Origin: Kiloniellaceae bacterium
GTDB taxonomy: Bacteria; Pseudomonadota; Alphaproteobacteria; Kiloniellales; J153
NCBI GenBank assembly: GCA_021776135.1
Contig: JAJFGL010000040.1
Location: forward strand, 67,967-131,966
DNA: 64,000 bases
Reading direction: 5' to 3'
Part shown: one piece after another, positions 9,705-24,292 of the stretch
How the letters are laid out: the number at the start of each line of letters is the position of its first letter
How positions within the stretch are numbered: position 1 is the stretch's first letter
Notes under the pieces: model-generated
What the model was told of the DNA's origin: nothing
The model's database searches: none
What the model saw: only the letters and a program-made list of their open reading frames with translations
Position numbers and translations under genes: made by a program

Positions 9705-10682
9705 CTATGGCAACTCGCGCGGCAAAACAAAGCTGTGCAGGTCGCAGGCGCCTGGTTTCAAGTCCTGCCAGTGGGCGGAATTCAAAACCAGCGTGACCAG
9801 CCCGGCGGTGGCGAACTTCGCTTCCAGCCGGGCCATGGCCGCGGGATCGCCGCCCCCCGCGAGCGCGAGCGCCAGCGCCTGAAGAGCCGGATTGTGCCCG
9901 ACCATCATGACCGAGGCCGCTTGATCCGGCACCCGGCGTAAGCGGTTCGTCAAGGCGACCACGCCGCCATGGTATATCCCACGGTCGTATTTTACCGTTC
10001 CCGGATCGCCCAGGGCCGGCAGAATATCCTCCAGCGTTTGCTTGGCGCGCACGGCCGAGGAACACAACACCAAATCGGGCTTAACATCGGCGATCCGCAT
10101 ATAGCGGCTCATGGCCTCGGCCGCACGCCGGCCGCGCGCCGCAAGCGGCCGGTTGAAATCCTCGATCGCCGGGTCGTCCCAAGAGGATTTAGCGTGGCGC
10201 AACAAATAAATCACCCGCGGGGATTCCGCCGCCCGGGCGGGCGGCTGTGCATCGGCTTCGGCGCCCGCCTCGGCCGGCTTCTTCAGGCGCCGCACCATCT
10301 TACTCAGCTTAGCGATATCGATCCGCTTCGCCGCTTTCTTGAGCGGCATCCACTTCCTGCGCCGAACCCCGGCCTCGGGCCAGTCCTCCAGCTCGCGCGC
10401 GACCAGCATGGGAAAGACTTCCACATCGCAGGTTCCGCCCCATTTCTTGTAGCTATAGCGGCCCAGGCTTCGATCCGAGACTTGGCCCTCGATGCCCGCC
10501 TCCTCGGCAGCCTCCTTACGGGCCGATTCGCGAGGCGTCAGGCCGGGTTCGACAATGCCTTTAGGCACGATCCAGCGCCCGCCTTTACGGGTAGAAATGA
10601 GCAGAACTTCCAAACCCTTGTTTCCCTCGCGATAGGGAAGCACGGCTGACTGCCTGTAGATCCAATCTGGTAATCTAGTCAT
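9705..10682 (-). CDS. Nudix hydrolase - SixA-type histidine phosphatase fusion
   Basis: Two domains in 325 residues. The first is a Nudix fold (about 1-130) with a Nudix-box-like segment GIVEPGLTPRESARKEAAEE, in which the first Glu of the classical box is Leu and the Arg is Lys. The second is a histidine phosphatase (about 160-320) with the RHAKSSWDD phospho-His loop and the second catalytic His in VGHNPAL. The same domain order occurs in mycobacterial MutT1, which hydrolyses oxidised nucleotides, dinucleoside polyphosphates and inositol pyrophosphates. Here the setting beside polyphosphate genes favours a polyphosphorylated small-molecule substrate, which is inference. Start ATG has GGAGGA upstream. 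A linker of Pro/Ala joins the domains. Confidence 0.9.
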   Translation of the reverse strand: MTRLPDWIYRQSAVLPYREGNKGLEVLLISTRKGGRWIVPKGIVEPGLTPRESARKEAAEEAGIEGQVSDRSLGRYSYKKWGGTCDVEVFPMLVARELEDWPEAGVRRRKWMPLKKAAKRIDIAKLSKMVRRLKKPAEAGAEADAQPPARAAESPRVIYLLRHAKSSWDDPAIEDFNRPLAARGRRAAEAMSRYMRIADVKPDLVLCSSAVRAKQTLEDILPALGDPGTVKYDRGIYHGGVVALTNRLRRVPDQAASVMMVGHNPALQALALALAGGGDPAAMARLEAKFATAGLVTLVLNSAHWQDLKPGACDLHSFVLPRELP

Positions 10683-10816
10683 ATTCCATCCTCCATGTTA
10701 CGGTTTTATAGCAAGCGGGCGTGGGTTATTCTTTGATTGAAATCAATATTCTGACCATCTTTACTGTCTATAACCAACTCTGTAATTTCTTCCGCGGCCT
10801 TTAGGGAGTGTCTTTC

Positions 10817-11386
10817 TTGAGCGAATCTAAGTTCGAGTTTGGAATCACGCCCTATTACTTCCTGCGTCATGGCGAAACACCGCAGACCCAAGAAGGAATC
10901 GCCCAAGGCCAGATGGAAAGCGAACTGAACGCCTTGGGCCGTCAATCCAGCGAGAAGGCGGCGAACATTCTCTCATCCATCCTTCTGGGTTCGATCTACG
11001 CGAGCCCGCTCAAGCGCACATGGAGGACGGCTAAGATCGTCTCCGTGATCACGGGCACGCCGGTGCACCCGCTCCCAGGCTTAATGGAACGTCATTGGGG
11101 CCGCTACCAGGGCAGGCCCAAGGATTGGCGGCCAGCCTCGGCCAACCCCAAATCCGTGGAAACCATTGAGGACTTCACACACCGGGTTCTCGATGCGATG
11201 AGGTCGATCTCAGGACCATCCCCGGTCCTGGTGGTGGCGCATTCAGGGGTTTTTCGCGTCCTCTGCTCCCATGCGGGGTTTCCCATGAAAGGCCGGATTT
11301 CGGTGGCCAGCGGTCAGGTATTGAAGTTGGAACCGCCAGGCAGCCCGAGGCAGTCTTGGCATATCAGTGTCGTGGATTCTTTCTAG
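10817..11386 (+). CDS. Histidine phosphatase family protein (phosphoglycerate mutase-like)
   Basis: About 190 residues with the family signature LRHGETPQTQ near the N-terminus and the second active-site His in VVAHSGVFRVLCSH. Acts on a phosphorylated small molecule or phosphoprotein; the substrate is unknown. I favour the TTG at 10817 because AGGGAG ends 8 bases before it; a GTG at 10808 would overlap that ribosome-binding site. It is divergent from the Nudix-SixA gene and followed by a repeat-rich intergenic region. It is one of two histidine phosphatases in this phosphate region. Confidence 0.88.
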   Translation: MSESKFEFGITPYYFLRHGETPQTQEGIAQGQMESELNALGRQSSEKAANILSSILLGSIYASPLKRTWRTAKIVSVITGTPVHPLPGLMERHWGRYQGRPKDWRPASANPKSVETIEDFTHRVLDAMRSISGPSPVLVVAHSGVFRVLCSHAGFPMKGRISVASGQVLKLEPPGSPRQSWHISVVDSF

Positions 11387-11806: not shown

Positions 11807-12982
11807 TTAGGAAAAGAGCTCTTCCGGTTTCGGGACAGGTTCGCATGACAGCCGGTCAATAATAATGGCCATGGCGTCTTTGACGACTTGTTCTTTTTCG
11901 CTGCTGATCACGATCTGCGTCTGCCAACGATCGGCCTCGGACAAGAGGTACGACTGCAAGCGCCAAATGGAATCAAAATTCTCCAGATAGCGTTCGGCGC
12001 GGCGGCGATTGAGATTCGCGCCCCGATTCTTGAAACGGTCTTTAAGATGAGCCGGATCGATTACGGCGAGCATGATCGGAATCACGATGGCGTTCGTATC
12101 CGGCGTCACTTTGTCTATCAAGGCGTGCTGTACATGAACCCCTTCCAGGATGAGAGAAGCCTCCTCGTGGAGAGAGCGTCTCACGACCGCTTCGCAGGGA
12201 ACCATTAACAGTTCCGCCTGGGCCTTGTATTCATCGATCAAATGGGCTTCCGCGTCGGCCCCGCCGCCCGGGCGGGCCTTCCAGGCATCGTAGGAAGACC
12301 GGTGGAGGACCGGTATCAACCGTTCGGGGATCATCATCCGCATGACTTCCCGAAGAAGATCGGTCGATTGAATTCTCACGATCTCCAGGCGCTGAGCCAG
12401 CTCGGTCGCGAGGGCGCTCTTGCCGGTGCCGGGCGCGCCCCCGATCATCAGGACCAGGGGGCGCTTTCCCCGTAGATAGTTGACCAAAACCAGATAGCGC
12501 CGCGCCGCTTCGGCGCCGCGAGTTATGCGCAGATAGCGGTAAATGAGAAACCCAAGCTGGCGTGACGGGATCACGGTCACGCCCTTCTTGGTCAGGTGCC
12601 TGAAGATCGCAGAAGTTACGGTCATGGCATCTTCGTAGGGCAAGCCGCTGGACACCAAAACCTGCCGGTGCCGCTCTCTGGAAAACAGCCAGGTACGACC
12701 GTCCGGATCATGAACCAGTATAGCTCCGAGCTCGTTGGCCGGATGCTGGTAACGTTGAATAGCCGCCGGGCCGTATTGGGAAATATACTTCAAAACAATC
12801 TCGCGGAGTTCGGCCGTCGCGACCTCGGCGGAATCGCTGAACTTATCCCGAACCGTCTTGGCGAGCGCGTAGGCCTCGTCGAAAGTCAGGCCGGCATCTT
12901 GAAGCGAGCGCGTAAGAATACCCCGCAGGAATGGGAACCTGGGTTCGTCGCCGCCTTCGTTTTTCACGAATACCTTTACCAT
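11807..12982 (-). CDS. 2-phosphoglycerate kinase-like P-loop protein
   Basis: 391 residues. The N-terminal part (1-95) resembles an ATP-cone (FPFLRGILTRSLQDAGLTFDEAYALA). A P-loop kinase domain follows, with Walker A GGAPGTGKS at 181-189 and an STDLLREVMR segment. This layout is that of archaeal 2-phosphoglycerate kinase, which makes 2,3-bisphosphoglycerate for cyclic 2,3-bisphosphoglycerate; bacterial members have no settled role. It is the last gene of a minus-strand run CYTH-CHAD, ParA, this gene (63-bp gap), so a link with polyphosphate or a polyphosphorylated solute is likely by context only. Confidence 0.8.
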   Translation of the reverse strand: MVKVFVKNEGGDEPRFPFLRGILTRSLQDAGLTFDEAYALAKTVRDKFSDSAEVATAELREIVLKYISQYGPAAIQRYQHPANELGAILVHDPDGRTWLFSRERHRQVLVSSGLPYEDAMTVTSAIFRHLTKKGVTVIPSRQLGFLIYRYLRITRGAEAARRYLVLVNYLRGKRPLVLMIGGAPGTGKSALATELAQRLEIVRIQSTDLLREVMRMMIPERLIPVLHRSSYDAWKARPGGGADAEAHLIDEYKAQAELLMVPCEAVVRRSLHEEASLILEGVHVQHALIDKVTPDTNAIVIPIMLAVIDPAHLKDRFKNRGANLNRRRAERYLENFDSIWRLQSYLLSEADRWQTQIVISSEKEQVVKDAMAIIIDRLSCEPVPKPEELFS

Positions 12983-13045
12983 GGGATATCGAATATTCCT
13001 TGAGCGTTTTATGCCTACTTGATGATCGTGACCCGGTATATGGCC

Positions 13046-13663
13046 TTAGTCGATGTAGGTTATCAAGGGCGCCCATTCGGCTTGAATGGCGCGCGCCGCA
13101 CTGCCCCGCCGGTCGAAGACGCTCGCCCCCGCTTCGGCCGCATCCGTATAGATGACCGTTTCGCGTATTGTCGCCACCGGCGCGTGATTGAATTGGTTTA
13201 GGAATTCGAGCAAAGATCGGGCCGCACGCGTGCGCGCCCGGACACGATTGGCGACCACGGCGACCGGTTTGCGGTTTTTACGAATGGGTTTGAGCGTTTC
13301 GATCTTGCCAAGAAACGCGACCGCGGCGATCTGATCGAAAGCGGACGGAAGGATCGGTAACACGATGGCATCCGCCATCTTCAAAAGGCTTTGAAAATCC
13401 TTCGCATGGATAGCCGCCGGCGCATCTATGACCAGCCGGTCTATGTTTTTTTTGACCTTACCAATGCCCTTGGTCCAATCGAGACCGTGGATGGGCGGTA
13501 AGTTGCCGGATCGCCGCTCGATCCAGTTCAGGCTGTTTCGCAGGGTGTCGGCATCGGCAATGGCGGTTACCAAACCCGCCTGAGCGAAAGCACCGGCCAG
13601 ATTCGTCGAGATGGTGGTCTTGCCGCATCCCCCTTTCGGATTGGCGACGAGGATTGAGCGCAT
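13046..13663 (-). CDS. ParA/VirC1-type partitioning ATPase, solitary
   Basis: 205 residues with the deviant Walker A of ParA proteins (PKGGCGKTTIS, residues 9-19), the Walker A' Asp region ADADTLRNSLNWIERR and Walker B-like RLVIDAPAA. It lacks an N-terminal DNA-binding extension and has no ParB gene beside it, so it is not a plasmid or chromosome ParAB pair. Such orphan ParA proteins position cargo such as carboxysomes, chemoreceptor arrays or flagella by oscillating on the nucleoid. It is 16 bp downstream of the CYTH-CHAD gene and upstream of the 2PGK-like gene, which implies a polyphosphate-bound cargo (inference). AAGGATA ribosome-binding site before the ATG. Confidence 0.88.
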   Translation of the reverse strand: MRSILVANPKGGCGKTTISTNLAGAFAQAGLVTAIADADTLRNSLNWIERRSGNLPPIHGLDWTKGIGKVKKNIDRLVIDAPAAIHAKDFQSLLKMADAIVLPILPSAFDQIAAVAFLGKIETLKPIRKNRKPVAVVANRVRARTRAARSLLEFLNQFNHAPVATIRETVIYTDAAEAGASVFDRRGSAARAIQAEWAPLITYID

Positions 13664-13679
13664 AAGCCGTATCCTTCCA

Positions 13680-15278
13680 TCATGGCGTTATGCCGGATTT
13701 TTCCATAACCGGCCAAAACGGCGGCGTCTTAACAAAGGCATCCCAACACTCAAGGAAATACGGTTCCGTGCCATGGAGGCGCTGTGCGTGCCAGCCCACG
13801 ATCAAGCCGGCGGCGGTGTAGAGTTGTGCGTCGTCCCGTGTTTGCCCGCCGGCGTTTTCGAACAGTTCGCCGATCATACGCCCGGTCTGGGCGACATCGT
13901 TAAGATAGCCGAACTGATCTTGGAGTTTTTCCAGGTTCGCGAGAAAGCTCTTTGTCTGGCTGCTTGGATAAATGTTTTGGAGAAAGTCGATCGCGTAGCG
14001 TAGTTTTTTTAGGCGTATACGGGCGTCGTGGCGTTTTTCCATCTCCATCCCGGCAAGGTTTTTACCTTCCTTCAGGAGCTTGCCATAGAGGCGCGACAAA
14101 ATAACGCCCGCAGAATCGCGAAACGGCCCGATCAGGGGATGTTGGCTCGCGATCGGCCGCGATAACCAGCCTTCGGTTTCGAAAAATGCCGTAAGCCGCA
14201 AGATCATTTGGCCATAGCGGTTCGATTCGATGGTATCGCGTACCAGCCGGTAGGCTTTCTTTCTGCGTGCCTCGGCTAAGTCCCGCAAGGCTTCGATACC
14301 TTCCTTGTCGATACCGTAACCCTCTACGCCAGCTAGGGTTTCCGTAATAAAAACGTCCCAATCGCGCGCTGCCCCCATGACCGTATGCAGCCATTTCAGA
14401 TCCACGCGCAACCAATCGATTCTTTCCCGATCGACCCATTGGTTTAGAATCGTGAGGATCGAACGCATCTTACGAATCGAAACCCGAATTTGATGAACCC
14501 CCTCAATGTCGGTTCCATCCAAGGCGGCGGCTTCGTTGTCCACAATATTAGCGATACATACACCGAAGATTTCCATAAGCGCGCCGGAAACCGTCTGGTC
14601 GTTTTTCAATAGGAATTTCGGCGCTTTTACTGCTTTCGGCTTCGAGCCGTTAAAGAGGGCAAAGCCTTTGGCCGGCTTCGATGTTCTGGACAAGCGCGCC
14701 TGCGTACCGCCAAGCACTTCCACCGCCATCTGGAAGAAGGCCATAGGCTCGCCGCCAAGGAGTTCCAATTCGCACTCCGACAGGCACATCGATTTACCCG
14801 CGGCGTGAACGCTTCCCCGGTCGATAGCGACCTCAATCTCAAGATCCGGACCAAAGGCGTTTTCACGGACAATGACAGCCTTCTCGCGCGTAACCTGCAC
14901 GGTGACCGCCGGTATCAATTCGCCCGGAAGAATGGTTCCAAGGGCGCGACGCGCATCCCGGGGCAAGATACTGAGGTCCGGTTCCAGGCCATCCATATCC
15001 TGTTCCCATTCTATCCGGTTCAGAGCCGCGCCGCCGGCGCCGCTATTTACCTTGACAGTCTGCACGCTTGAATCGCCGGAACGCCGGACGCGTAACACAA
15101 CTCCTTTCCCGAACAATCTATGATCGGGAGTATCGAAATAGGTCGCGCGCAGATCGTCGGTGCGCCATGGCGTTTGACCGCTCGTTTGTGCCTCAGCGGC
15201 CATTTTCATGGCCGCCAGATCGGCGGCGCTCCCCGTGAACTTCAGTTCAAACTCGCGCGGCTGTTGATTCGCTCTCAA
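13680..15278 (-). CDS. CYTH-CHAD protein (inorganic triphosphatase-like, polyphosphate-binding)
   Basis: 532 residues. An N-terminal CYTH domain (about 8-210) opens with the metal/triphosphate motif EFELK (E9-x-E11-x-K13) typical of triphosphate tunnel enzymes such as E. coli YgiF. A C-terminal CHAD domain (about 225-515) has conserved basic helices GVHQIRVSIRKMRSIL and HDARIRLKKLRYAIDFL; CHAD modules bind polyphosphate and target proteins to polyphosphate granules. Start codon is TTG with GGGGA upstream. It heads the minus-strand group CYTH-CHAD, ParA, 2PGK-like kinase. Confidence 0.92.
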   Translation of the reverse strand: MRANQQPREFELKFTGSAADLAAMKMAAEAQTSGQTPWRTDDLRATYFDTPDHRLFGKGVVLRVRRSGDSSVQTVKVNSGAGGAALNRIEWEQDMDGLEPDLSILPRDARRALGTILPGELIPAVTVQVTREKAVIVRENAFGPDLEIEVAIDRGSVHAAGKSMCLSECELELLGGEPMAFFQMAVEVLGGTQARLSRTSKPAKGFALFNGSKPKAVKAPKFLLKNDQTVSGALMEIFGVCIANIVDNEAAALDGTDIEGVHQIRVSIRKMRSILTILNQWVDRERIDWLRVDLKWLHTVMGAARDWDVFITETLAGVEGYGIDKEGIEALRDLAEARRKKAYRLVRDTIESNRYGQMILRLTAFFETEGWLSRPIASQHPLIGPFRDSAGVILSRLYGKLLKEGKNLAGMEMEKRHDARIRLKKLRYAIDFLQNIYPSSQTKSFLANLEKLQDQFGYLNDVAQTGRMIGELFENAGGQTRDDAQLYTAAGLIVGWHAQRLHGTEPYFLECWDAFVKTPPFWPVMEKSGITP

Positions 15279-15377
15279 CCCTGGTCCCCACCGGTTAGGC
15301 TATATGATATTTTCGACGTAATACCGGACAACCTATTGCGCTATTTTTATTAAAGGGCCATCAAACATTCGGCCTCG

Positions 15378-15611
15378 TCAATCTAGTTCCTCGATATATT
15401 TTCTAGCTTTTTTCTGATGCTTTTTATTGGTTTCCAGTTTGGCCTCGAGGTGCTTCCTCTTCTTGCGCGAAATATCGTCTTTCAGCGAATGGCGGAGTTT
15501 CTTGCCGTGTTTCTCGAGCTTGTCGAGCGCTTTGAGCATGGAGTCGCGTTTCTTCGATCTCTTCATGTCTTTGGAGCTGAATAAATCTTTAATTTTTGCG
15601 AACGGTTTCAT
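15378..15611 (-). CDS. Small Lys-rich protein of unknown function
   Basis: 77 residues containing 22 Lys and 6 Arg against 12 acidic residues, all predicted helical, no hydrophobic segment. It begins MKPFAKIKDLFSSKDMKR. The ATG lies 4 bp after the stop of the Na/Pi transporter gene, so it is the next gene of that operon. A longer reading of the same frame would run back into the transporter and is not credible. I do not recognise a family. Its charge suits binding of polyphosphate, nucleic acid or the transporter's strongly acidic C-terminal tail (DDSDDDDEDDGN), all inferences. Confidence 0.7.
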   Translation of the reverse strand: MKPFAKIKDLFSSKDMKRSKKRDSMLKALDKLEKHGKKLRHSLKDDISRKKRKHLEAKLETNKKHQKKARKYIEELD

Positions 15612-15615
15612 ACCC

Positions 15616-17481
15616 TTAATCCTTGCTATTCTGGGATACATCGATTGCCGCCAAAACTTCACGCCCGGCGCCCCAATTACCATCATTGCCGTCGTCCTCG
15701 TCGTCGTCGTCACTATCGTCGAGGCCGATGAGTTCTTGGGTTTCCATTTCTTCGATATCTGTCGCACCAAACATGGTTTTCGCGGCATCCACTAGGTGCC
15801 ATACGGCGTCGTGTGCGTAACCTTGATCGTTCATCAAGGACGTACCCATGGTGGCGGTTATTTTTCCTTCGCGAATGAGTTTGTCCAAGGAACCGGTCTT
15901 GACGATACTGTCTTCCTCGATAATGACGCGGTGGGAATCGAGGTCGAGGACGTTAAATTCACCCTCGGCATTGTGACGCACCAAATTGATTTCCCGCAAC
16001 AGTGACGCAAGTTGATAGCGGAGCGTATTGTATTCCCGGCGAATATCCTCGTTGTCGTGGTCGATGTAGCGGGTGACGTTTTTGCGCAGATGTTTGATTG
16101 CCTTCACCGACCTCACGATAAGGCGGCTGGCTTGCCTCAACCCAAAAAGCTGATTGGAATACGGGGCTGGCGTCGATCCATGCCACGCGCTAATGAATTC
16201 CAGGATCTTCGCATATAGCGCCTTGACCTTCAATTCATAGGCGACGTCGAGATCGAAATCTAAAATCTCGCGATTGTCGTAGACAATCGCCTCCAAGTCC
16301 TTTTCGGAATTAATCTGGGTACGGTGCAGGTTGAGGCCGTGGGCGATGATCTCAAATGCATTATCGTACAGGTGTATGGTCTCGTTACGGACCGCGTTCA
16401 GCATGGTTTCAGGAAATTCCGTCACCGATTCGTTGAGGTATTTCGGCGCGACGACATCGAGTACGGGGACAGGTATGGCCCGTTCCAGAAAGCGAACCAA
16501 TTGGGACACGAAAGGCATTAACACGGCAACGCCGATGACATTGAAGATCGTGTGGAACACCGCGAGCTTTAGGGTGTAGTCGTCGTCCGCGATACCGACC
16601 ACGGCGGCCGTGTAATCGACGGCCCACATGATCTGATAGATGAAGGCGATCGCGATGACGCCCGTAACCATGTTGAATATTAGATGGCCTGCCGCCAGGC
16701 GCTTGCCTTGATAGTTGGCGCTTAAGGATCCGAGGATCGCCGTTATGGTAGTGCCTATATTGGCGCCGATGGCCAGGGCCAAGGCATTTTCGTAGGTGAT
16801 CTGCTGGGCCGAGAGCGCGGTGATGATCAACACCAAGGTCGCGTGCGACGACTGCATGACGACGGTGGCGAATACACCGATGCCGGCGAAAATGAAAAGA
16901 CCGGCATAACCGGGAACGGCGAATTCCGTCAGGTTGATGGTATCGCGGAAAGCTTCGAAACCTTCCTTCATGTAATGGATGCCGAGGAACAAGAAGCCAA
17001 GACCTGCGAGAATGTATCCGATTCCCTTAAGGGGCTTGCTGGATTGGAACACCAGAATAATACCGAAAACCAACATCGGCATGGCGTAGGCGGATATCTT
17101 GACCTTCAGGCCGAAGCCGGCAATCAGCCAGGCGCCTGTCGTGGTGCCGATATTAGCGCCGAAGATGATGCCGATCCCGGACATCAGCGCGATCAGTTCG
17201 GCGCTTAGAAACGAGATCGTGATCACCGAAACCAGGGAACTTGACTGCATGATTGTGGTCGCGACGATACCGAAACCAACGCTCTTCCAGAGCTTGTCCG
17301 TGGTCTTGGCCAGCAACTTCTCCAGAAGTCCGCCCGTGAAGGCGCGGAACCCGTCCTCGAGGAATAGCATCCCGAACAGGAAAATCGCGACCCCCGCCGC
17401 GATTTCCTTGAAATCCGGACTGATCCAGAATCCATAAACGAGGACTAAAAATATGACTGGGAGAAGAATTCTCTTAAGCAT
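15616..17481 (-). CDS. Na+/phosphate cotransporter with C-terminal PhoU-like domain
   Basis: 621 residues. The N-terminal half carries two inverted Na/Pi cotransporter repeats with the QSSS-type motifs (TTIMQSSSLVSVITI and VVMQSSHATLVLIITAL) and the matching GANIGTT segments, spread over 8-10 TM helices. The C-terminal half (about 350-560) is a PhoU-like helical bundle. It ends in an acidic tail DDSDDDDEDDGN near residue 590. The family (NptA/YjbB-like) exports or imports phosphate driven by sodium; E. coli YjbB exports it. ATG preceded by GAGG. It lies between ppk and the Lys-rich gene on the same strand. Confidence 0.92.
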   Translation of the reverse strand: MLKRILLPVIFLVLVYGFWISPDFKEIAAGVAIFLFGMLFLEDGFRAFTGGLLEKLLAKTTDKLWKSVGFGIVATTIMQSSSLVSVITISFLSAELIALMSGIGIIFGANIGTTTGAWLIAGFGLKVKISAYAMPMLVFGIILVFQSSKPLKGIGYILAGLGFLFLGIHYMKEGFEAFRDTINLTEFAVPGYAGLFIFAGIGVFATVVMQSSHATLVLIITALSAQQITYENALALAIGANIGTTITAILGSLSANYQGKRLAAGHLIFNMVTGVIAIAFIYQIMWAVDYTAAVVGIADDDYTLKLAVFHTIFNVIGVAVLMPFVSQLVRFLERAIPVPVLDVVAPKYLNESVTEFPETMLNAVRNETIHLYDNAFEIIAHGLNLHRTQINSEKDLEAIVYDNREILDFDLDVAYELKVKALYAKILEFISAWHGSTPAPYSNQLFGLRQASRLIVRSVKAIKHLRKNVTRYIDHDNEDIRREYNTLRYQLASLLREINLVRHNAEGEFNVLDLDSHRVIIEEDSIVKTGSLDKLIREGKITATMGTSLMNDQGYAHDAVWHLVDAAKTMFGATDIEEMETQELIGLDDSDDDDEDDGNDGNWGAGREVLAAIDVSQNSKD

Positions 17482-17604
17482 GACAATAACCTCGGGTCTT
17501 CAATTCAGTACGCAAGCGCACACCTACCGAGGCAGTGTGCCGCAGAGCGGCCCTTCCACATGGGAAAGCCGGTATGCGCAACCTCGCCGCGGTGCGTTTC
17601 GGGC

Positions 17605-20600
17605 TCAAACCCGTCTGGTTCGTTTGGCAATCGCCTTGGGCCGCCTAAGGGCCATCGTCCGCGCGTGCCGGTGCCGGTTCGTGGCGGCATCGATCATCGC
17701 TTGCTGGCATCCGGAATTACTGCCCGCGTTCCCGTTCGGGCGGTGAACGTAACTGCCGTCCGAAAGCATGTCCCAAACGTTGCGCCGGTCATTCAACTGC
17801 AGTTCAAGAAATTCGTGCAATTCCTGGCGTAGGTCTTTGTCTTCCACTGCGACCACGACTTCAGCCCGATGCTCTAGATTTCTCAACATGAGGTCGGCCG
17901 AGCCGATGTAGAATTCCTCATCGCCTCCGTTGCGGAAATAATACACCCGCGCGTGCTCAAGGAAACGCCCGACGACGCTGATGACGGAAATGTTTTCGGA
18001 CAGTCCGGAGATGCCGGGCCGGAGACGGCAAGTATCGCGGATGATCAGTTCTACCCGGACATCGGCGCGCGAGGCGCGATATAGCGCCTCGATGATATCT
18101 GGGTCTTCCAATGCGTTAGTCTTGAGCCGAATCAAGCCCGGCGAGCGCGTGGAATGCTTCGATATTTCACGGTCGATCATGGCCAGAAGTTGATCTTTCA
18201 TGTTTCGCGGCGAGACCAATATCTTGGAATAGTGCCGCACGGGCTGACAACCCGACGTCAGGTAGTTGAAGAAATTGACCAGATCGGAACCGACCTTGCT
18301 GTCGCAGGTCAGCAGTCCGAAATCCGAATACATCCGCGCCGTACCGGCATGGTAGTTACCGGTTCCGATGTGGGAATACCGGCGCAATCCGTTGTAATCC
18401 CTGCGGATAACCAAAATCAACTTCGAATGGGTCTTGAGGCCGACCACGCCGTAGGCGACGTGAATACCGGCTTCCTCCAGCCGCCGCGCCCACTTGACGT
18501 TGGCGCTCTCGTCGAATCGGGCTTTTAGCTCCACGGAAACCGCCACCTGTTTTCCGTTTTGCGCCGCTTCGATTAGGTGCTCGATGATTCCGGTGCCCTC
18601 CGTGGTCCGGTAAAGAGTTGCCTTGATCGCCAGAACCTTTGGATCCCGGCTGGCCTCGCGGATAAAACGAACGACGGACGTGGTGAAAGATTCATAAGGG
18701 TGCTGAAGAAGTATCGGCCCTTTGTTACGGATGATGTGAAAGATGCTCTGCTTATCCTGCAAATCGACGTGGTCTATCGGGTGGTGGTCCGGATCGTGGA
18801 GTTCCGCCTTCTCGATGGACGCGATCTCCATCATATCGCGAAGGCCGAGCATAATATCGCTATCGAAAACATCCGTCGATTCATCGAGTCCAAGTTCAGC
18901 CGCCAGCATACCGCGATGCAGCGGTCTGATGTCCGCATCGGTTTCCAGGCGAACTATGGGGGCGAATTTGCGGTCGCGCACTTCGCTTTCGATCATCTCG
19001 AGAAGATCGTCGGCCGTATCCTCGTTGCGTTCCGTGTCGGCGTTTCGCGTGACCCGGAAAATTTCGCAGTCAAGAACCTCGACATCAGGAAAAAGGGCGT
19101 CGAGATTACTGGCCATGACGTCTTCGAGAAGCACGAATTTGTTATCCGAGCCCACGCGGATGAAGCGCGGAACCGCGTTCCCCGTTGGCACCTTGACCCG
19201 CGCCAATATCGGCGTCGCCTCTTCGGGCATGTGAAGCGTCACCAGAAGGTTCAGCGAAAGATTGGAAATGTGCGGAAATGGATGGGCCGGATCCATGGCC
19301 AAAGGTGTGACCAGCGGGAAGATGTTTTTCAGGTAATATGCGCGCACGCCAGCCCGTTCGCCGGGCAGGAGGTCGGCACAGGAGGAGATGATAATATCGT
19401 TCTCGCGCAAGGTTTGCGTCAGCTTGAGAAACACCTTCCGGGAACGGTTCTGAATCTCGCGGACCAGGGCGATGGAATCGTGTATCTGTTGCGCCGGCGT
19501 GCGCCCATCGAGGGTCAGTTCATGGAGACCGGCCCCGACTTGTTGCTTGAGCCCGCCGATTCTTTTCATAAAGAACTCGTCGAGGTTCGAGCCTACGATG
19601 GCTAGGAATTTCACCCTCTCAAGCAGTGGGTTTCTTGTGTCTTCCGCCTCATGGAGAACCCTATAGTTGAAATTAAGCCAGGTCAGTTCGCGGTTGAGGT
19701 AGAGTTCCGGCGCCCTTAGGTTCTTACCGGTTTCAGCCTGCGCGCGCGCCGCCTGGGCGGCGGCGGCGGCGGCGCGTTTCGCCGCCCGGTCGGCCTCTGC
19801 CTTAGAGGCAGCGGCGGCATGCGCCGCCGCTGCGGCCAACTTGAATTTTTCGGCCGCCTTAGCCGACGCGCGGGTTCCATCGACGGCGGTTTTTGTCCGC
19901 GACCGCGCCCGCCCGGCTGTCGCCGTGGTCTCGGCAACCGTTTCCTTCGTATGCATCGGAATGCCGTTCATGGCTTTCTCCGCTTTGCGGGCGGCATCCT
20001 CGGTCTGCTTGACGGCCTTGGCGGCTTCCCCGACTTTGACCGCCGCGGCGTCGGCTTCCGCCTTGGCCCGGGTGGCGATGGCCGTGACTGCTTCCACCGC
20101 CGCCTCGGCTTGCGCTTCGGCGGCTTTGGCGACCTGTCCGAGCTTGACGATACGGCGCTCAAGGTTTCGGCGGTCGGATGCGGAACAATTTTTGCTGCGT
20201 TCGGCCTGCGCGATCTCTATTTCGACGCCCTTGGCTCTCGCCCGCGATTTGATGGCGATGGTTTCTCTCTTACGCGCGGTCGCCGCCGCGGTCTCGCTGT
20301 CATGGGCCAGCTTCGCCGCCCGTTTCGAGATATCGACCGCCGCCGCCGCCGCCTTCGCGGCATTTTTGGCATGCTTGTCGGTGGAAGTAACGGCGCGCGT
20401 AACCTTGTTTTTCGGCCTTGCCGTTTCGACCTCGTTTAAAACTTTTTTCGACGCCCTCTTGGTTTGGGCGACGGTCTTGGCCGCCGCCGTTGTTTGGTCG
20501 GCTGCTTCGTTGGCCTTCTTTCGCGCTTCGGTCGCCGCCTTTGACGCGCGGCCGACCTCGGTTTTTGCCATTTTCATTTCCGGCGGAAGAAGGTTTTTAT

Positions 20601-20652
20601 CCAGCATAACCTCATCCATCGGCACAAATTGACCGGCGGCCCGATCCGGCAT
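17605..20652 (-). CDS. ppk: Polyphosphate kinase PPK1 with long Ala/Lys-rich N-terminal extension
   Basis: PPK1 makes and degrades polyphosphate by reversible transfer of the ATP gamma-phosphate. The catalytic core starts near residue 313 (YLNRELTWLNFNYRVLHEA) and is full length. The two active-site His are H742 in GLKTHSKL and H900 in FLEHARVYYF. In front lies an extra segment of about 310 residues, rich in Ala, Lys, Arg and Glu, predicted as continuous coiled coil, with histone H1/PhaF-like AKAA runs; normal PPK1 lacks it. The C-terminus is also basic (RPKAIAKRTRRV). I start at the ATG at 20652, with GGGAG 8 bases before; a TTG at 20673 is possible but poorly placed. Confidence 0.95.
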   Translation of the reverse strand: MPDRAAGQFVPMDEVMLDKNLLPPEMKMAKTEVGRASKAATEARKKANEAADQTTAAAKTVAQTKRASKKVLNEVETARPKNKVTRAVTSTDKHAKNAAKAAAAAVDISKRAAKLAHDSETAAATARKRETIAIKSRARAKGVEIEIAQAERSKNCSASDRRNLERRIVKLGQVAKAAEAQAEAAVEAVTAIATRAKAEADAAAVKVGEAAKAVKQTEDAARKAEKAMNGIPMHTKETVAETTATAGRARSRTKTAVDGTRASAKAAEKFKLAAAAAHAAAASKAEADRAAKRAAAAAAQAARAQAETGKNLRAPELYLNRELTWLNFNYRVLHEAEDTRNPLLERVKFLAIVGSNLDEFFMKRIGGLKQQVGAGLHELTLDGRTPAQQIHDSIALVREIQNRSRKVFLKLTQTLRENDIIISSCADLLPGERAGVRAYYLKNIFPLVTPLAMDPAHPFPHISNLSLNLLVTLHMPEEATPILARVKVPTGNAVPRFIRVGSDNKFVLLEDVMASNLDALFPDVEVLDCEIFRVTRNADTERNEDTADDLLEMIESEVRDRKFAPIVRLETDADIRPLHRGMLAAELGLDESTDVFDSDIMLGLRDMMEIASIEKAELHDPDHHPIDHVDLQDKQSIFHIIRNKGPILLQHPYESFTTSVVRFIREASRDPKVLAIKATLYRTTEGTGIIEHLIEAAQNGKQVAVSVELKARFDESANVKWARRLEEAGIHVAYGVVGLKTHSKLILVIRRDYNGLRRYSHIGTGNYHAGTARMYSDFGLLTCDSKVGSDLVNFFNYLTSGCQPVRHYSKILVSPRNMKDQLLAMIDREISKHSTRSPGLIRLKTNALEDPDIIEALYRASRADVRVELIIRDTCRLRPGISGLSENISVISVVGRFLEHARVYYFRNGGDEEFYIGSADLMLRNLEHRAEVVVAVEDKDLRQELHEFLELQLNDRRNVWDMLSDGSYVHRPNGNAGSNSGCQQAMIDAATNRHRHARTMALRRPKAIAKRTRRV

Positions 20653-20889: not shown

Positions 20890-21561
20890 ATGGCCATTCC
20901 ACACGGGCCTGTCGAAAATCCTACCGGTATCCGCGCCATGAATTCAATGATCGAACTCGACTTAGAGCCGTGCGAGCACGTCGAAACCATCAAGGGCATT
21001 CCCTTCCCGACGGAAATGCGGTTCCGGCAGCTTGTGGTGACCGGCCCGCCCGGTTCGGGCAAGTCCGTGTTGATGAAAGATATGGGGGGCTGGCCGGAAG
21101 AAGGTTATATCGACTTGACGCTCAAGAACTGGTGGCGCGCGAACGCGCTGACGTTCCGCCCGCGGGAGGTTCACCTTGGGCTTCCCTTCCACGGCCACCC
21201 CGACGCCTTGAGCGTCATAGATCCGGAATGGCTTGAGGCGCCGGAACCGCCCCGCTTGGACTGCGCGCGTATAATTTTGCCGCCCATAAAGGAGCATTTT
21301 CTATCGGTTGACTGGCGTGATCGATTCTTTTTCGAGTTCTCGCTTCCGCCGCCCGAGGAAATCCTCAAATGGCGGCTGGAACGCCGGCGTAAAAATTCGC
21401 ACCCGCCGGATGAAATGGTGAATATCGAACAAGTAGAGAGGCAAGTTTCCGTCTATCGCGAAGTAGCTCTATACTTTTATCGGTCTGGGATGTTAATCTA
21501 CGTTAGAGATGAGTTTGACGGAATGCCAAAATTTATTGTTGGTCCGAATAATAATAGTTAG
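20890..21561 (+). CDS. P-loop kinase-like NTPase of unknown substrate
   Basis: Up to 223 residues with a clear Walker A, TGPPGSGKS, near residue 55, and later a helical lid-like region EEILKWRLERRRKNSHPPDE. The fold looks like a small-molecule or nucleotide kinase but no substrate motif is recognisable. The start is uncertain: no good ribosome-binding site precedes the ATG at 20890, and ATGs at 20938 and 20947 are alternatives. The stop is 35 bp before the FHA-phosphatase gene, so the two form a kinase-phosphatase pair on the plus strand, opposite to the genes around them. Confidence 0.75.
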   Translation: MAIPHGPVENPTGIRAMNSMIELDLEPCEHVETIKGIPFPTEMRFRQLVVTGPPGSGKSVLMKDMGGWPEEGYIDLTLKNWWRANALTFRPREVHLGLPFHGHPDALSVIDPEWLEAPEPPRLDCARIILPPIKEHFLSVDWRDRFFFEFSLPPPEEILKWRLERRRKNSHPPDEMVNIEQVERQVSVYREVALYFYRSGMLIYVRDEFDGMPKFIVGPNNNS

Positions 21562-21596
21562 AGATCAATAATCCAAATGAAGGCGGGACACGGGCT

Positions 21597-23018
21597 ATGA
21601 GCCTGGAGCTTCTCAAGCGCCGTTTCTGGCCGGGCCGCAAGGTTTCGCGCGATTCCCTGGCGGTCGAGCCGCGGGCGCTCATGGCGCCGCACCGCATCGT
21701 CTTCGAAGGCTACCCGGTGCAAATCGGCCTTGGCCCAAGGAAGCTATGGCTGTTTCCCGAGGTGGCGGCCAGTGCGAACCCAGATACGCCCATCGGCGAT
21801 TGGCTCCTGGTCGATCCAGACCGCTATTTTACCGAAATCGCCGGCTTCGCGCGGATTTCGCCGGGGGAAACCCTGCTTGTCGGGCGCGGCGACAAAAATC
21901 TGAACATGATCTTCGGTTTCGAAAAGAACGTCGCGAAACGTCACCTGCATCTGAGCAATGACGGCGGGGAAATTCTGCTGAAACCGCTAGAGACCGAGAC
22001 AGAGACCTATGTCTCCAGGGCCGCGGATCGCGCCGCCCTGGACGACCTGAGGCTCGAGCGCTTGAACAACCTGCGCTTCGTTCGCGAAATTTTCGGTGGC
22101 CCGATCGAGCTCTTGGCGCCCGAAACCGCCATGGCCGCCGCCCAGGATTTCTTAGACCTTCTGCGCGGCGATCCGTACCGGCCCGTGGCGCGCAATGGCC
22201 TGCCAGGCGCCCTGGTGGACCTGCCGGACGAGCTTACGCCGATTGTCGTGGGCGACCTTCACGCCCAAGTCGACAACCTGCTCACCATCCTGTGCGCCGG
22301 CCGCTTGCTAGAGGAGTTGTGCGGCGGAAGCGCCGCGCTCGTCCTGCTCGGAGATTTGGTCCACCGCGAAGAGGACGGCAAGCTAGAGGAGATGGACTCG
22401 TCTTTGCTGATGCTGGACTTGGTTTTCAAACTGAAATTACGCTTTCCCAATAACGTCTTTTGCTTACGTGGCAATCACGAAAGCCTCGAGGACACCGTGA
22501 GCAAGGCCGGCGTGCCTCAAGGTCAAATATTGCGCCATCACGCCAAGAAGCTACGCGGCAAGGCTTATGTCAAGATTCTGGCCGAGTGCTTCGATCACTT
22601 GCCTTATGTCCTGCGCTCGACGGACTTTATCGCGTGCCACGCGGGCCCGACGCGCAAGCGCGTGTCGCGGGACGATTTGATCAACATCCACGAGCGCCCA
22701 AAGCTGGCTCGTGAATTGATCTGGACCCGGCTGCGTCTGCCGAACCGCCCGGCCGGTTATACGAAAGGAGACGTGAAATCGTTCCGCGCGAGTTTGGAGG
22801 TGGCGAAGCATACGCCCTTGATCGTGTCGCACTCACCGCTCTCGCGCAACGCCACCTACTGGACCCATGTCAACGACATCAAGAATCATCACATAGTGTT
22901 CAGCGCCATACCCGGTAAAGTCGCGGTCATGTTCCGTGCCGGGCACGAGATGATTCCCTTGGAGTATCCGGTCGAACCCTTGCGCGAAAGCATAGGCGCC
23001 CTGACCCAAACCTCCTGA
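21597..23018 (+). CDS. FHA-like domain plus PPP-family metallophosphatase
   Basis: 473 residues. Around residues 95-145 is a probable FHA phosphothreonine-binding domain (LLVGRGDKNLNMIFGFEKN, then AKRHLHLSND). The C-terminal domain is a PPP/PP1-type two-metal phosphatase with GDLHAQ, GDLVHR and GNHES, followed by a histidine metal ligand in DFIACHAGP. It is likely to remove phosphate from a protein or nucleotide; the substrate is unknown. It pairs with the upstream P-loop kinase. Its stop lies 8 bp from the convergent pit gene. The FHA assignment is moderate; the phosphatase is firm. Confidence 0.85.
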   Translation: MSLELLKRRFWPGRKVSRDSLAVEPRALMAPHRIVFEGYPVQIGLGPRKLWLFPEVAASANPDTPIGDWLLVDPDRYFTEIAGFARISPGETLLVGRGDKNLNMIFGFEKNVAKRHLHLSNDGGEILLKPLETETETYVSRAADRAALDDLRLERLNNLRFVREIFGGPIELLAPETAMAAAQDFLDLLRGDPYRPVARNGLPGALVDLPDELTPIVVGDLHAQVDNLLTILCAGRLLEELCGGSAALVLLGDLVHREEDGKLEEMDSSLLMLDLVFKLKLRFPNNVFCLRGNHESLEDTVSKAGVPQGQILRHHAKKLRGKAYVKILAECFDHLPYVLRSTDFIACHAGPTRKRVSRDDLINIHERPKLARELIWTRLRLPNRPAGYTKGDVKSFRASLEVAKHTPLIVSHSPLSRNATYWTHVNDIKNHHIVFSAIPGKVAVMFRAGHEMIPLEYPVEPLRESIGALTQTS

Positions 23019-23026
23019 CTACGGTT

Positions 23027-24292
23027 TTAGGTAAATATTCCCTTCAAGGTGAAGAAGAACAGCGCCGCCAGGAGACCGCCGATCGGCAGGGTCACGATCC
23101 ACGACACGAAGATGCCGCCGATCACACGTAGATCCAAGGCGCCGATGCCTCGTGCCAGACCGACGCCCATGACCGCGCCGACGGCGATATGGGTCGTCGA
23201 GACGGGCATGCCAGTGCGCGACGCCAGAACCACGGTGGCCGCGGCGGCCATGGTGGCGCAGAAACCGCGTGTCGGGGTCAATTCGGTAATCTTGGTTCCG
23301 ATCGTCCGCATGACCTTGTAGCCGTAGGTTGCCAGACCAACGATGATGCCGAAACCGCCGAGCAGCAGAATCCAGAGCGGCAATGCCGCTTTCTGGGCGA
23401 CCTCGCCGCCGGACTGCACGATGGCATAGACCGCGGCCATGGGGCCGACGCCATTGGCGACATCGTTGGAGCCGTGGGCGAAAGCCATGCCGCAGGCCGT
23501 GAATATCATCATCGGCACGAAGACCTTTTCAACGCTGGCGAAGTGATAATCCCTGTCGGCGGTTTCATCGACCTTGACCCGCTGGATCATGATCCAACCG
23601 ATCACGGCGACAACCACGCCAATAACCGCGGCGAGCAGGAAACTCATCGGCGCGCTGAGTTCCAGATTCAAGTGCTTGAGCCCCTTGAACATGGTCACCA
23701 GGGAGATGATAAAGCCCACCAGGAAGACATAGAACGGGCCCCATCTCTTGGCGCTTAGGAAGGGGTTATCCGTATTGAGGATCAGGCGGCGGATGGACAT
23801 CATGAGGATGAAGGCGATCGTCCCTCCGAGCAACGGGGACACTACCCAAGAGGCCGCGATCTGACCGATCTTACCCCAATTCACCGCATCGATACCGATG
23901 CCCGCCATGGCGAATCCGACCACGGCGCCGACAATGGAATGGGTTGTCGAAACCGGCCAACCGCGTATTGAGGCGATCATGAGCCATACAGCGGCAGCCA
24001 GAAGCGCGGCCAGCATACCGAAGACTAAAATTTCCGGCTTATCGACGATGGAGCTGGGATCGATGATACCCTTTCGGATCGTCTTGGTGACGTTACCGCC
24101 AGCCAGCGCCGCGCCCAAAAACTCGAATATGCCCGCGATGATAATCGCCGTCGTGACCGTAATGGCGCCCGAACCCACCGAGGTGCCCATGACATTGGCC
24201 ACGTCGTTGGCGCCGATACCCCAAGTCATATAAAACCCGAAGACAACCGCCAATGTGATGAATACGGTGCCGTACATGGCAATGGTATCCAT
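23027..24292 (-). CDS. pit: Low-affinity inorganic phosphate transporter, Pit family
   Basis: 421 residues, about 10-12 TM segments, inner membrane. It has the duplicated Pit signature: TWGIGANDVANVMGTSVGSG near the N-terminus and FAHGSNDVANGVGP in the second half, with GWPVSTTHSIVGA and GMPVSTTHIAVGA after each. Pit imports metal-phosphate with protons. It is downstream of the DUF47 gene (47-bp gap), the usual Pit partner. With ppk nearby this supplies phosphate for polyphosphate. Confidence 0.95.
   Translation of the reverse strand: MDTIAMYGTVFITLAVVFGFYMTWGIGANDVANVMGTSVGSGAITVTTAIIIAGIFEFLGAALAGGNVTKTIRKGIIDPSSIVDKPEILVFGMLAALLAAAVWLMIASIRGWPVSTTHSIVGAVVGFAMAGIGIDAVNWGKIGQIAASWVVSPLLGGTIAFILMMSIRRLILNTDNPFLSAKRWGPFYVFLVGFIISLVTMFKGLKHLNLELSAPMSFLLAAVIGVVVAVIGWIMIQRVKVDETADRDYHFASVEKVFVPMMIFTACGMAFAHGSNDVANGVGPMAAVYAIVQSGGEVAQKAALPLWILLLGGFGIIVGLATYGYKVMRTIGTKITELTPTRGFCATMAAAATVVLASRTGMPVSTTHIAVGAVMGVGLARGIGALDLRVIGGIFVSWIVTLPIGGLLAALFFFTLKGIFT

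Follow-up and report, generated by a model that had tools for sequence, protein, structure and literature searches.

The window analysed here is a 64,000-nucleotide stretch of contig C34 of the 3.96-Mb draft genome (G000) of a Kiloniellaceae bacterium. On its minus strand, genes for PPK1, a Na/Pi cotransporter, a CYTH-CHAD protein, ParA, and a 2PGK-like kinase are transcribed in this order. The gene for polyphosphate kinase PPK1 (17605–20652, ATG at 20652) is followed after 123 bp by that of the Na/Pi cotransporter (15616–17481; 159.5 bits) and, after a further 337 bp, by a gene with a TTG start codon which encodes a CYTH-CHAD protein of 532 amino acids (13680–15278), a putative coat of polyphosphate (polyP) granules and putative ParA partner. 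A gap of 16 bp (13664–13679) separates its stop from the start of the gene for a ParA-type ATPase of 205 amino acids (13046–13663), the putative motor. The 2-phosphoglycerate-kinase-like (2PGK-like) kinase, which contains an ATP-cone, is encoded 63 bp further on (11807–12982) and, like PPK1 and the cotransporter, is a local neighbour of the pair. These coordinates and the Pfam and NCBIfam assignments agree with a preliminary description of the locus, which had placed ParA 16 bp after CYTH-CHAD and ahead of the 2PGK-like kinase. It had also named a nearby Na/Pi-PhoU transporter and ppk; the Na/Pi cotransporter and PPK1 were recovered, whereas no PhoU domain was reported on the cotransporter by Pfam at E ≤ 1e-3.

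The view that ParA is solitary was borne out by a Pfam/NCBIfam scan of ten neighbourhood proteins, none of which matched the ParB family. Thus, the window locus lacks the parB gene beside parA that characterizes ParABS systems. The chromosomal parAB genes of this genome were not located, and inspection by eye of two other ParA-like genes on contigs C4 and C54 revealed no ParB-like neighbour. Solitary ParA-like genes of this genome at loci L235 (2676–3491, minus strand) and L236 (637–1350, plus strand) lie near genes whose products, judged by eye, end in a SPOR-like stretch, with no ParB-like gene noticed alongside. Downstream of the 2PGK-like kinase gene the window encodes a protein in which a NUDIX domain is fused to a SixA-like histidine phosphatase (9705–10682, minus strand) and, divergently, a second histidine phosphatase (10808–11386, plus strand). 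Past ppk, the plus strand encodes a small protein resembling kinases and a phosphoesterase of the calcineurin type, and the minus strand a Pit-type phosphate transporter; these genes carry the phosphate theme of the region further (20890–24292).

Domain searches with the ParA protein returned CbiA (56 bits), AAA_31 and MipZ from Pfam, and it scored 121.4 bits against the NCBIfam equivalog NF041546 ('ParA family partition ATPase'), which is under the curated cut-off of 180. Residues K10, K15, D39 and D80, which we take to be the signature lysine, the P-loop lysine, and the Walker A' and Walker B residues of a deviant Walker A ATPase, are invariant in 14 ParA orthologues and also in a wider alignment of 44 rows. 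Judged from these residues, the ATPase core is intact and has the deviant Walker A motif of the ParA/MinD family. The window protein departs from its 14-row family at two near-invariant positions, having Leu41 and Asn43 in place of Q41 and S43. It is basic (net charge +11, pI 10.2), as are the linked ParAs (net +6 to +11, eight measured). The nearest solved structure by sequence profile is plasmid ParF, the ParA of TP228. Likewise, Foldseek identified ParF as the nearest fold of the AlphaFold (AF2) model (pLDDT 96.6), and in a second structural comparison ParF was the best PDB match with a Z score of 24.2 and an rmsd of 2.2–2.5 over 194–196 aligned residues. McdA (Z 20.8), MipZ, MinD and Soj (Z about 20.7) were matched as well. 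The predicted fold is therefore that of the ParA/MinD family and resembles ParF.

The partner gene product is assigned by Pfam to CYTH with 51.6 bits and to CHAD with 176.7 bits, well above the CHAD cut-off of 25.6, by which it belongs to the CHAD proteins (phosins). Thirteen representatives of the 22 ParA-linked CYTH-CHAD proteins were compared with 19 unlinked ones. Linked and unlinked proteins are alike at the conserved positions His262, Arg265, Arg269, Arg272 and Arg305 (window numbering), and His417, Arg420, Lys424 and Arg427 are likewise kept in both. In the same comparison, the linked proteins had no N-terminal extension in common that might dock to ParA. Nor did a motif clearly confined to them emerge, a few columns being weakly different. 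Because neither feature stood out, a direct contact between CHAD and ParA is something we infer. Three genomes (G051, G175, G271) encode one CHAD paralogue within 2 kb of ppk and another beside ParA.

The pairing of the two genes is not a peculiarity of the window. Among 289 evenly drawn genomes of Alphaproteobacteria (the class sample), ParA matches at E ≤ 1e-8 were present in 97, with a sharp break between 14 genomes at E ≤ 1.2e-45 and the next at 3.5e-21. The ParAs of the top 14 are 40–53% identical to that of the window (the window itself excepted). In eight of these genomes, belonging to five family groups, the gene that directly precedes ParA in the same orientation encodes CYTH-CHAD; in the other six, from four family groups, CHAD is encoded on another contig or far off. 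Overall, with each genome counted once, CYTH-CHAD is the upstream neighbour of ParA, in the same orientation, in 102 of 111 ParA genomes. This recurrence exceeds chance, and the pair spans six of the 11 family-level groups of Alphaproteobacteria that have ParA. Hence, as in McdAB-like systems, the gene of a ParA-type ATPase stands beside one from a cargo-associated family. The preliminary description had suggested looking for the adjacency in other genomes and had regarded its confinement to this one as an argument against the proposed function; given its presence in six family-level groups, the adjacency is not so confined.

The order that includes G051 (Azospirillaceae) contributes most, with ParA in 75 and CHAD in all of 82 genomes and the pair in 73 of the 75; in G394 of this order, ParA is no more than a fragment. 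In the order of G082, ParA was found in eight of nine genomes and the pair in 8/8, and in that of G131 the corresponding values are 16/31 and 16/16, the ParA of G466 being cut by a contig end. The small linked groups show the pair in 3/3 (f160), 1/1 (f82) and 1/1 (window) genomes. In the window's own order, 5 of 38 genomes have ParA; the pair occurs in the window genome and the three f160 genomes, and not in G299. The nine unpaired cases (f17, three times; f18; f4; f109; f162; G354; G369) include unlinked ParAs in five family groups. Spacing was measured in 56 pairs besides the window, with starts taken from profile alignment: 17 overlap by 1–7 bp (13 of 16 pairs in the G131 order and four of eight in the G082 order), whereas the genes are 5–68 bp apart in 38 pairs and 630 bp apart in one (G390). 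A ParA-CHAD fusion protein was considered and rejected, since long frames around ParA (e.g. L180, L192) cross CHAD in another frame; they were taken as overlapping frames rather than fusions.

The preliminary description had set the pair in a polyP gene group. All-against-all comparison of the reading frames flanking ten pairs from six groups (f1, f53, f82, f84, f133, f160) revealed that CHAD and ParA, together with their antisense shadows, are the sole clusters common to all six, and that other clusters join two or three groups (among the eight largest listed). Of the proposed setting, then, CHAD and ParA recur, whereas neither ppk nor the Na/Pi transporter nor the 2PGK-like kinase was found near the pair in the available flanks of the other five groups. 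The idea of a conserved polyP operon was rejected because, besides CHAD and ParA, the window genes were not found beside the pair in the available flanks of the other groups. An exception among the flanks is a SixA-like gene at the alphaproteobacterial locus L043, with the order CHAD-ParA-SixA. A ParA homologue followed by a SixA-like gene is also seen at five Lysobacteraceae loci (L053, L060, L063, L067, L070) from Xanthomonas, Lysobacter, two Luteimonas, and Vulcaniibacterium.

Outside this group of ParAs the link was not seen in the loci compared. As a control, 16 further ParA-like loci from Alphaproteobacteria (flanks of about 1.5 kb) were searched by tblastn with the window protein, and CYTH-CHAD was found at none of them. 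In a wider scan of named genomes, CHAD was beside none of 80 loci among the matches listed, several flanks ending at contig ends; this rules out a general ParA-CHAD link in Proteobacteria as far as the beta- and gammaproteobacterial homologues among those matches are concerned. The closest wider-scan loci are mostly beta- or gammaproteobacterial, with roughly 30–41% identity (among the matches listed). CHAD was searched in the genomes behind 38 of the 39 listed loci L045–L083 (L055 left out) and was present somewhere in 17 of these 38 genomes. Without the alphaproteobacterial L045 and L046, CHAD is found in 16 of 36 genomes and 20 of 36 have no CHAD match, genome completeness not being given. 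Given homologues with no CHAD nearby and 20 genomes with none at all, the wider ParA family, as sampled here, is not tied to CHAD and has a different task, and the link is a feature of the alphaproteobacterial clade.

A tree of 60 ParA rows (14 alphaproteobacterial orthologues, 42 wider homologues and four outgroups; other fetched loci were left out) recovered this clade as 16 rows with support of 99/91. Two of its members stand apart: L045, from a Magnetospira metagenome-assembled genome (MAG), has no CHAD match in 2.8 Mb of unstated completeness, and L046, from a Rhodobacteraceae MAG, has CHAD elsewhere and none within 6-kb flanks. The label 'linked' changes three times on the ParA tree, and 38 of 500 shuffles were equally low, so that clustering is not significant. 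Linked and unlinked ParAs are interleaved, and repeated loss or repeated gain of the link is therefore needed. The CHAD tree has 41 rows, L159 and L181 being among the sequences omitted, and is poorly resolved, as 18 of its 38 inner branches are open. On it the same label changes five times against a shuffled mean of 13.8, and none of 500 shuffles was equally low; this low count is partly due to the clustering of near-copies. In the window's own family, ParA is found in one of nine genomes, that of the window itself, and this patchiness may reflect frequent loss or transfer.

The dependence between the two genes seems asymmetric. All 14 class-sample ParA genomes have CHAD, against a background of 103 in 289 genomes (p = 3e-7 by the hypergeometric test, with no correction for kinship or genome size). 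Of the 103 CHAD genomes, 89 do without this ParA; thus, it seems to be ParA that is the accessory of CHAD, and not CHAD that of ParA. ppk1 is likewise present in 14 of 14 ParA genomes versus 180 of 289 overall. Two genomes of the Azospirillaceae group, G373 (L175) and G377 (L176), have kept a CHAD of the ParA-linked clade and have no ParA match, from which we conclude that ParA can go missing while its CHAD persists.

These data confirm that the ParA-CHAD pairing is real; it has also been under-noticed. As to its function, three precedents are relevant. Other CHAD domains bind polyP specifically and localize to granules, according to the accessible part of PMC6537752; ParA-type ATPases position carboxysomes via a cargo-bound partner, as stated in the available sections of a 2025 review (PMC13052382); and in the Halothiobacillus work, as far as its accessible text goes, cargos of A/D ATPases were first proposed from gene neighbourhood (PMC10241942). 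Taken together, they suggest that ParA spaces or partitions polyP granules with CHAD as the adaptor, and since the pair recurs in several alphaproteobacterial families it may represent a machine that spaces granules over the chromosome. With some reserve, we therefore favour the view that the genes for CYTH-CHAD and ParA are a conserved module of two whose products position or partition polyP granules. We lean only slightly towards the more specific proposal of a dedicated, ATP-driven system that actively spaces and partitions the granules on the nucleoid in several alphaproteobacterial families, and perhaps in Acidithiobacillus by separate or ancient recruitment.

A plausible mechanism can be outlined. 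By analogy with published CHAD proteins, the CHAD domain would coat the polyP granule, while dimers of ATP-bound ParA, to judge by fold and charge, would bind the nucleoid non-specifically. Granule-bound CHAD, alone or together with polyP, might then contact ParA and elicit ATP hydrolysis. In McdAB-like systems it is the partner that stimulates the ATPase, often via a short basic segment. The granule would trail the resulting ParA gradient, so that granules become spaced and shared between daughter cells as carboxysomes are with McdA; ParA would thus work on polyP granules like McdA or ParF.

The same tight pairing would also be expected if ParA were an ATP-dependent switch that acts on CHAD or its CYTH enzyme and governs granule number or growth, or the turnover of polyP or nucleotides, with no granule being moved. 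Compatible with such a role are the EXEXK motif, present in 20 of the 22 linked CYTH-CHAD proteins, and the cAMP signalling function proposed for the Acidithiobacillus CYTH-CHAD protein in the available part of PMC6416229. However, the nearest folds belong to ATPases of partition systems, ParF among them, although switches of the FleN/FlhG type have the same fold, and the linked ParAs are basic, as expected of nucleoid binders; we consider a switch rather unlikely. Similarly improbable in our opinion is mere co-expression, in which ParA would serve another cargo, be it DNA or protein, and lie in one operon with CHAD so that both genes are regulated together. The unlinked ParAs in five family groups and the beta- and gammaproteobacterial relatives with no CHAD link among the matches listed are in line with that explanation, as is the statement, in the accessible text of PMC10241942, that many A/D ATPases are still without an assigned partner. 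Yet no other flank gene is common to all six family groups, and CHAD is retained throughout the 14 class-sample genomes that have ParA.

In the source organism itself, granules might be held passively and ParA be dispensable, either through the basic tail of PPK1 or because granules ride on chromosome segregation. The N-terminal tail of the window PPK1 comprises 315 amino acids, is Ala/Lys-rich (30% Ala; net charge +26; pI 10.2), and is reminiscent of the basic tails of the AlgP/PhaF type. In the portions of the papers available, AlgP of Pseudomonas, for which such a role is proposed, provides a precedent (PMC9239181), and polyP positioning in Caulobacter depends on the cell cycle and on chromosome segregation (PMC13052382). 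The window PPK1 is the second of its genome, its core being 40% identical to that of the ordinary PPK1 on contig C18 and 63–65% identical to the second PPK1s of G302, G297, G299 and G291. These four relatives, however, have tails of about 90–145 amino acids with net charges of −3 to +6, and no ppk occurs in the available flanks of pairs from the five other family groups. Passive holding thus appears very unlikely, and positioning by the ParA-CHAD module is the explanation we prefer.

If this is true, ParA/MinD ATPases would gain a cargo of a new class, an inorganic polymer without a membrane, as well as adaptors of a new class, the phosins. ParA positioning, so far described for DNA and for carboxysomes, chemoreceptors and further cargos made of protein, would then extend to a polymer granule. 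It offers a named candidate motor and a named candidate adaptor for the spacing and inheritance of polyP granules, a process for which, in the accessible part of the 2025 review, energy use is said to remain to be seen and AlgP of Pseudomonas is tabulated as the spacing factor (PMC13052382). The words 'polyphosphate' and 'CHAD' are absent from the main text of PMC10241942, and in the literature accessible to us, most subscription papers and bioRxiv lying outside its scope, we found no proposal of ParA-driven positioning of polyP granules. The preliminary description had known of no such ParA-CHAD system. The parA-CHAD-ppk adjacency itself had in fact been printed for Acidithiobacillus, in 2019 within an operon assigned to cAMP signalling that ties the energy state to metabolism and cell division (PMC6416229) and in 2024 in a paper on copper resistance (PMC10892726); no granule-positioning role is proposed in the available portions of either paper.

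Of the known partition systems, ParF-ParG of plasmid TP228, a type Ib system, is closest to the window ParA in profile and fold, ParF having 206 amino acids. It differs in that no ParG- or ParB-like gene is seen beside the window ParA, identity to ParF is about 22%, and several of the ParAs are encoded on contigs of chromosome size (e.g. 4.29 Mb for C1 of G197 and 3.76 Mb for C1 of G131). The Acidithiobacillus folD-ppk-parA-CHAD cluster, likened here by gene order alone, also has parA near CYTH-CHAD and ppk and is conserved in the genus, but was interpreted as copper-related or as part of cAMP signalling, according to the accessible sections of PMC10892726 and PMC6416229. AlgP of Pseudomonas aeruginosa shares the cargo proposed here, its polyP granules being evenly spaced and linked to the nucleoid as described in the available part of PMC9239181; AlgP, however, is a histone H1-like protein. 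Another close system is McdA-McdB, in which a solitary ParA-type ATPase with the same predicted fold as the window ParA has a cargo-bound partner. McdA chains are longer (252–262 residues) and 15–16% identical to the window ParA, and in place of a carboxysome the putative cargo here is a shell-less granule of an inorganic polymer, with a CYTH-CHAD phosin as the putative partner.
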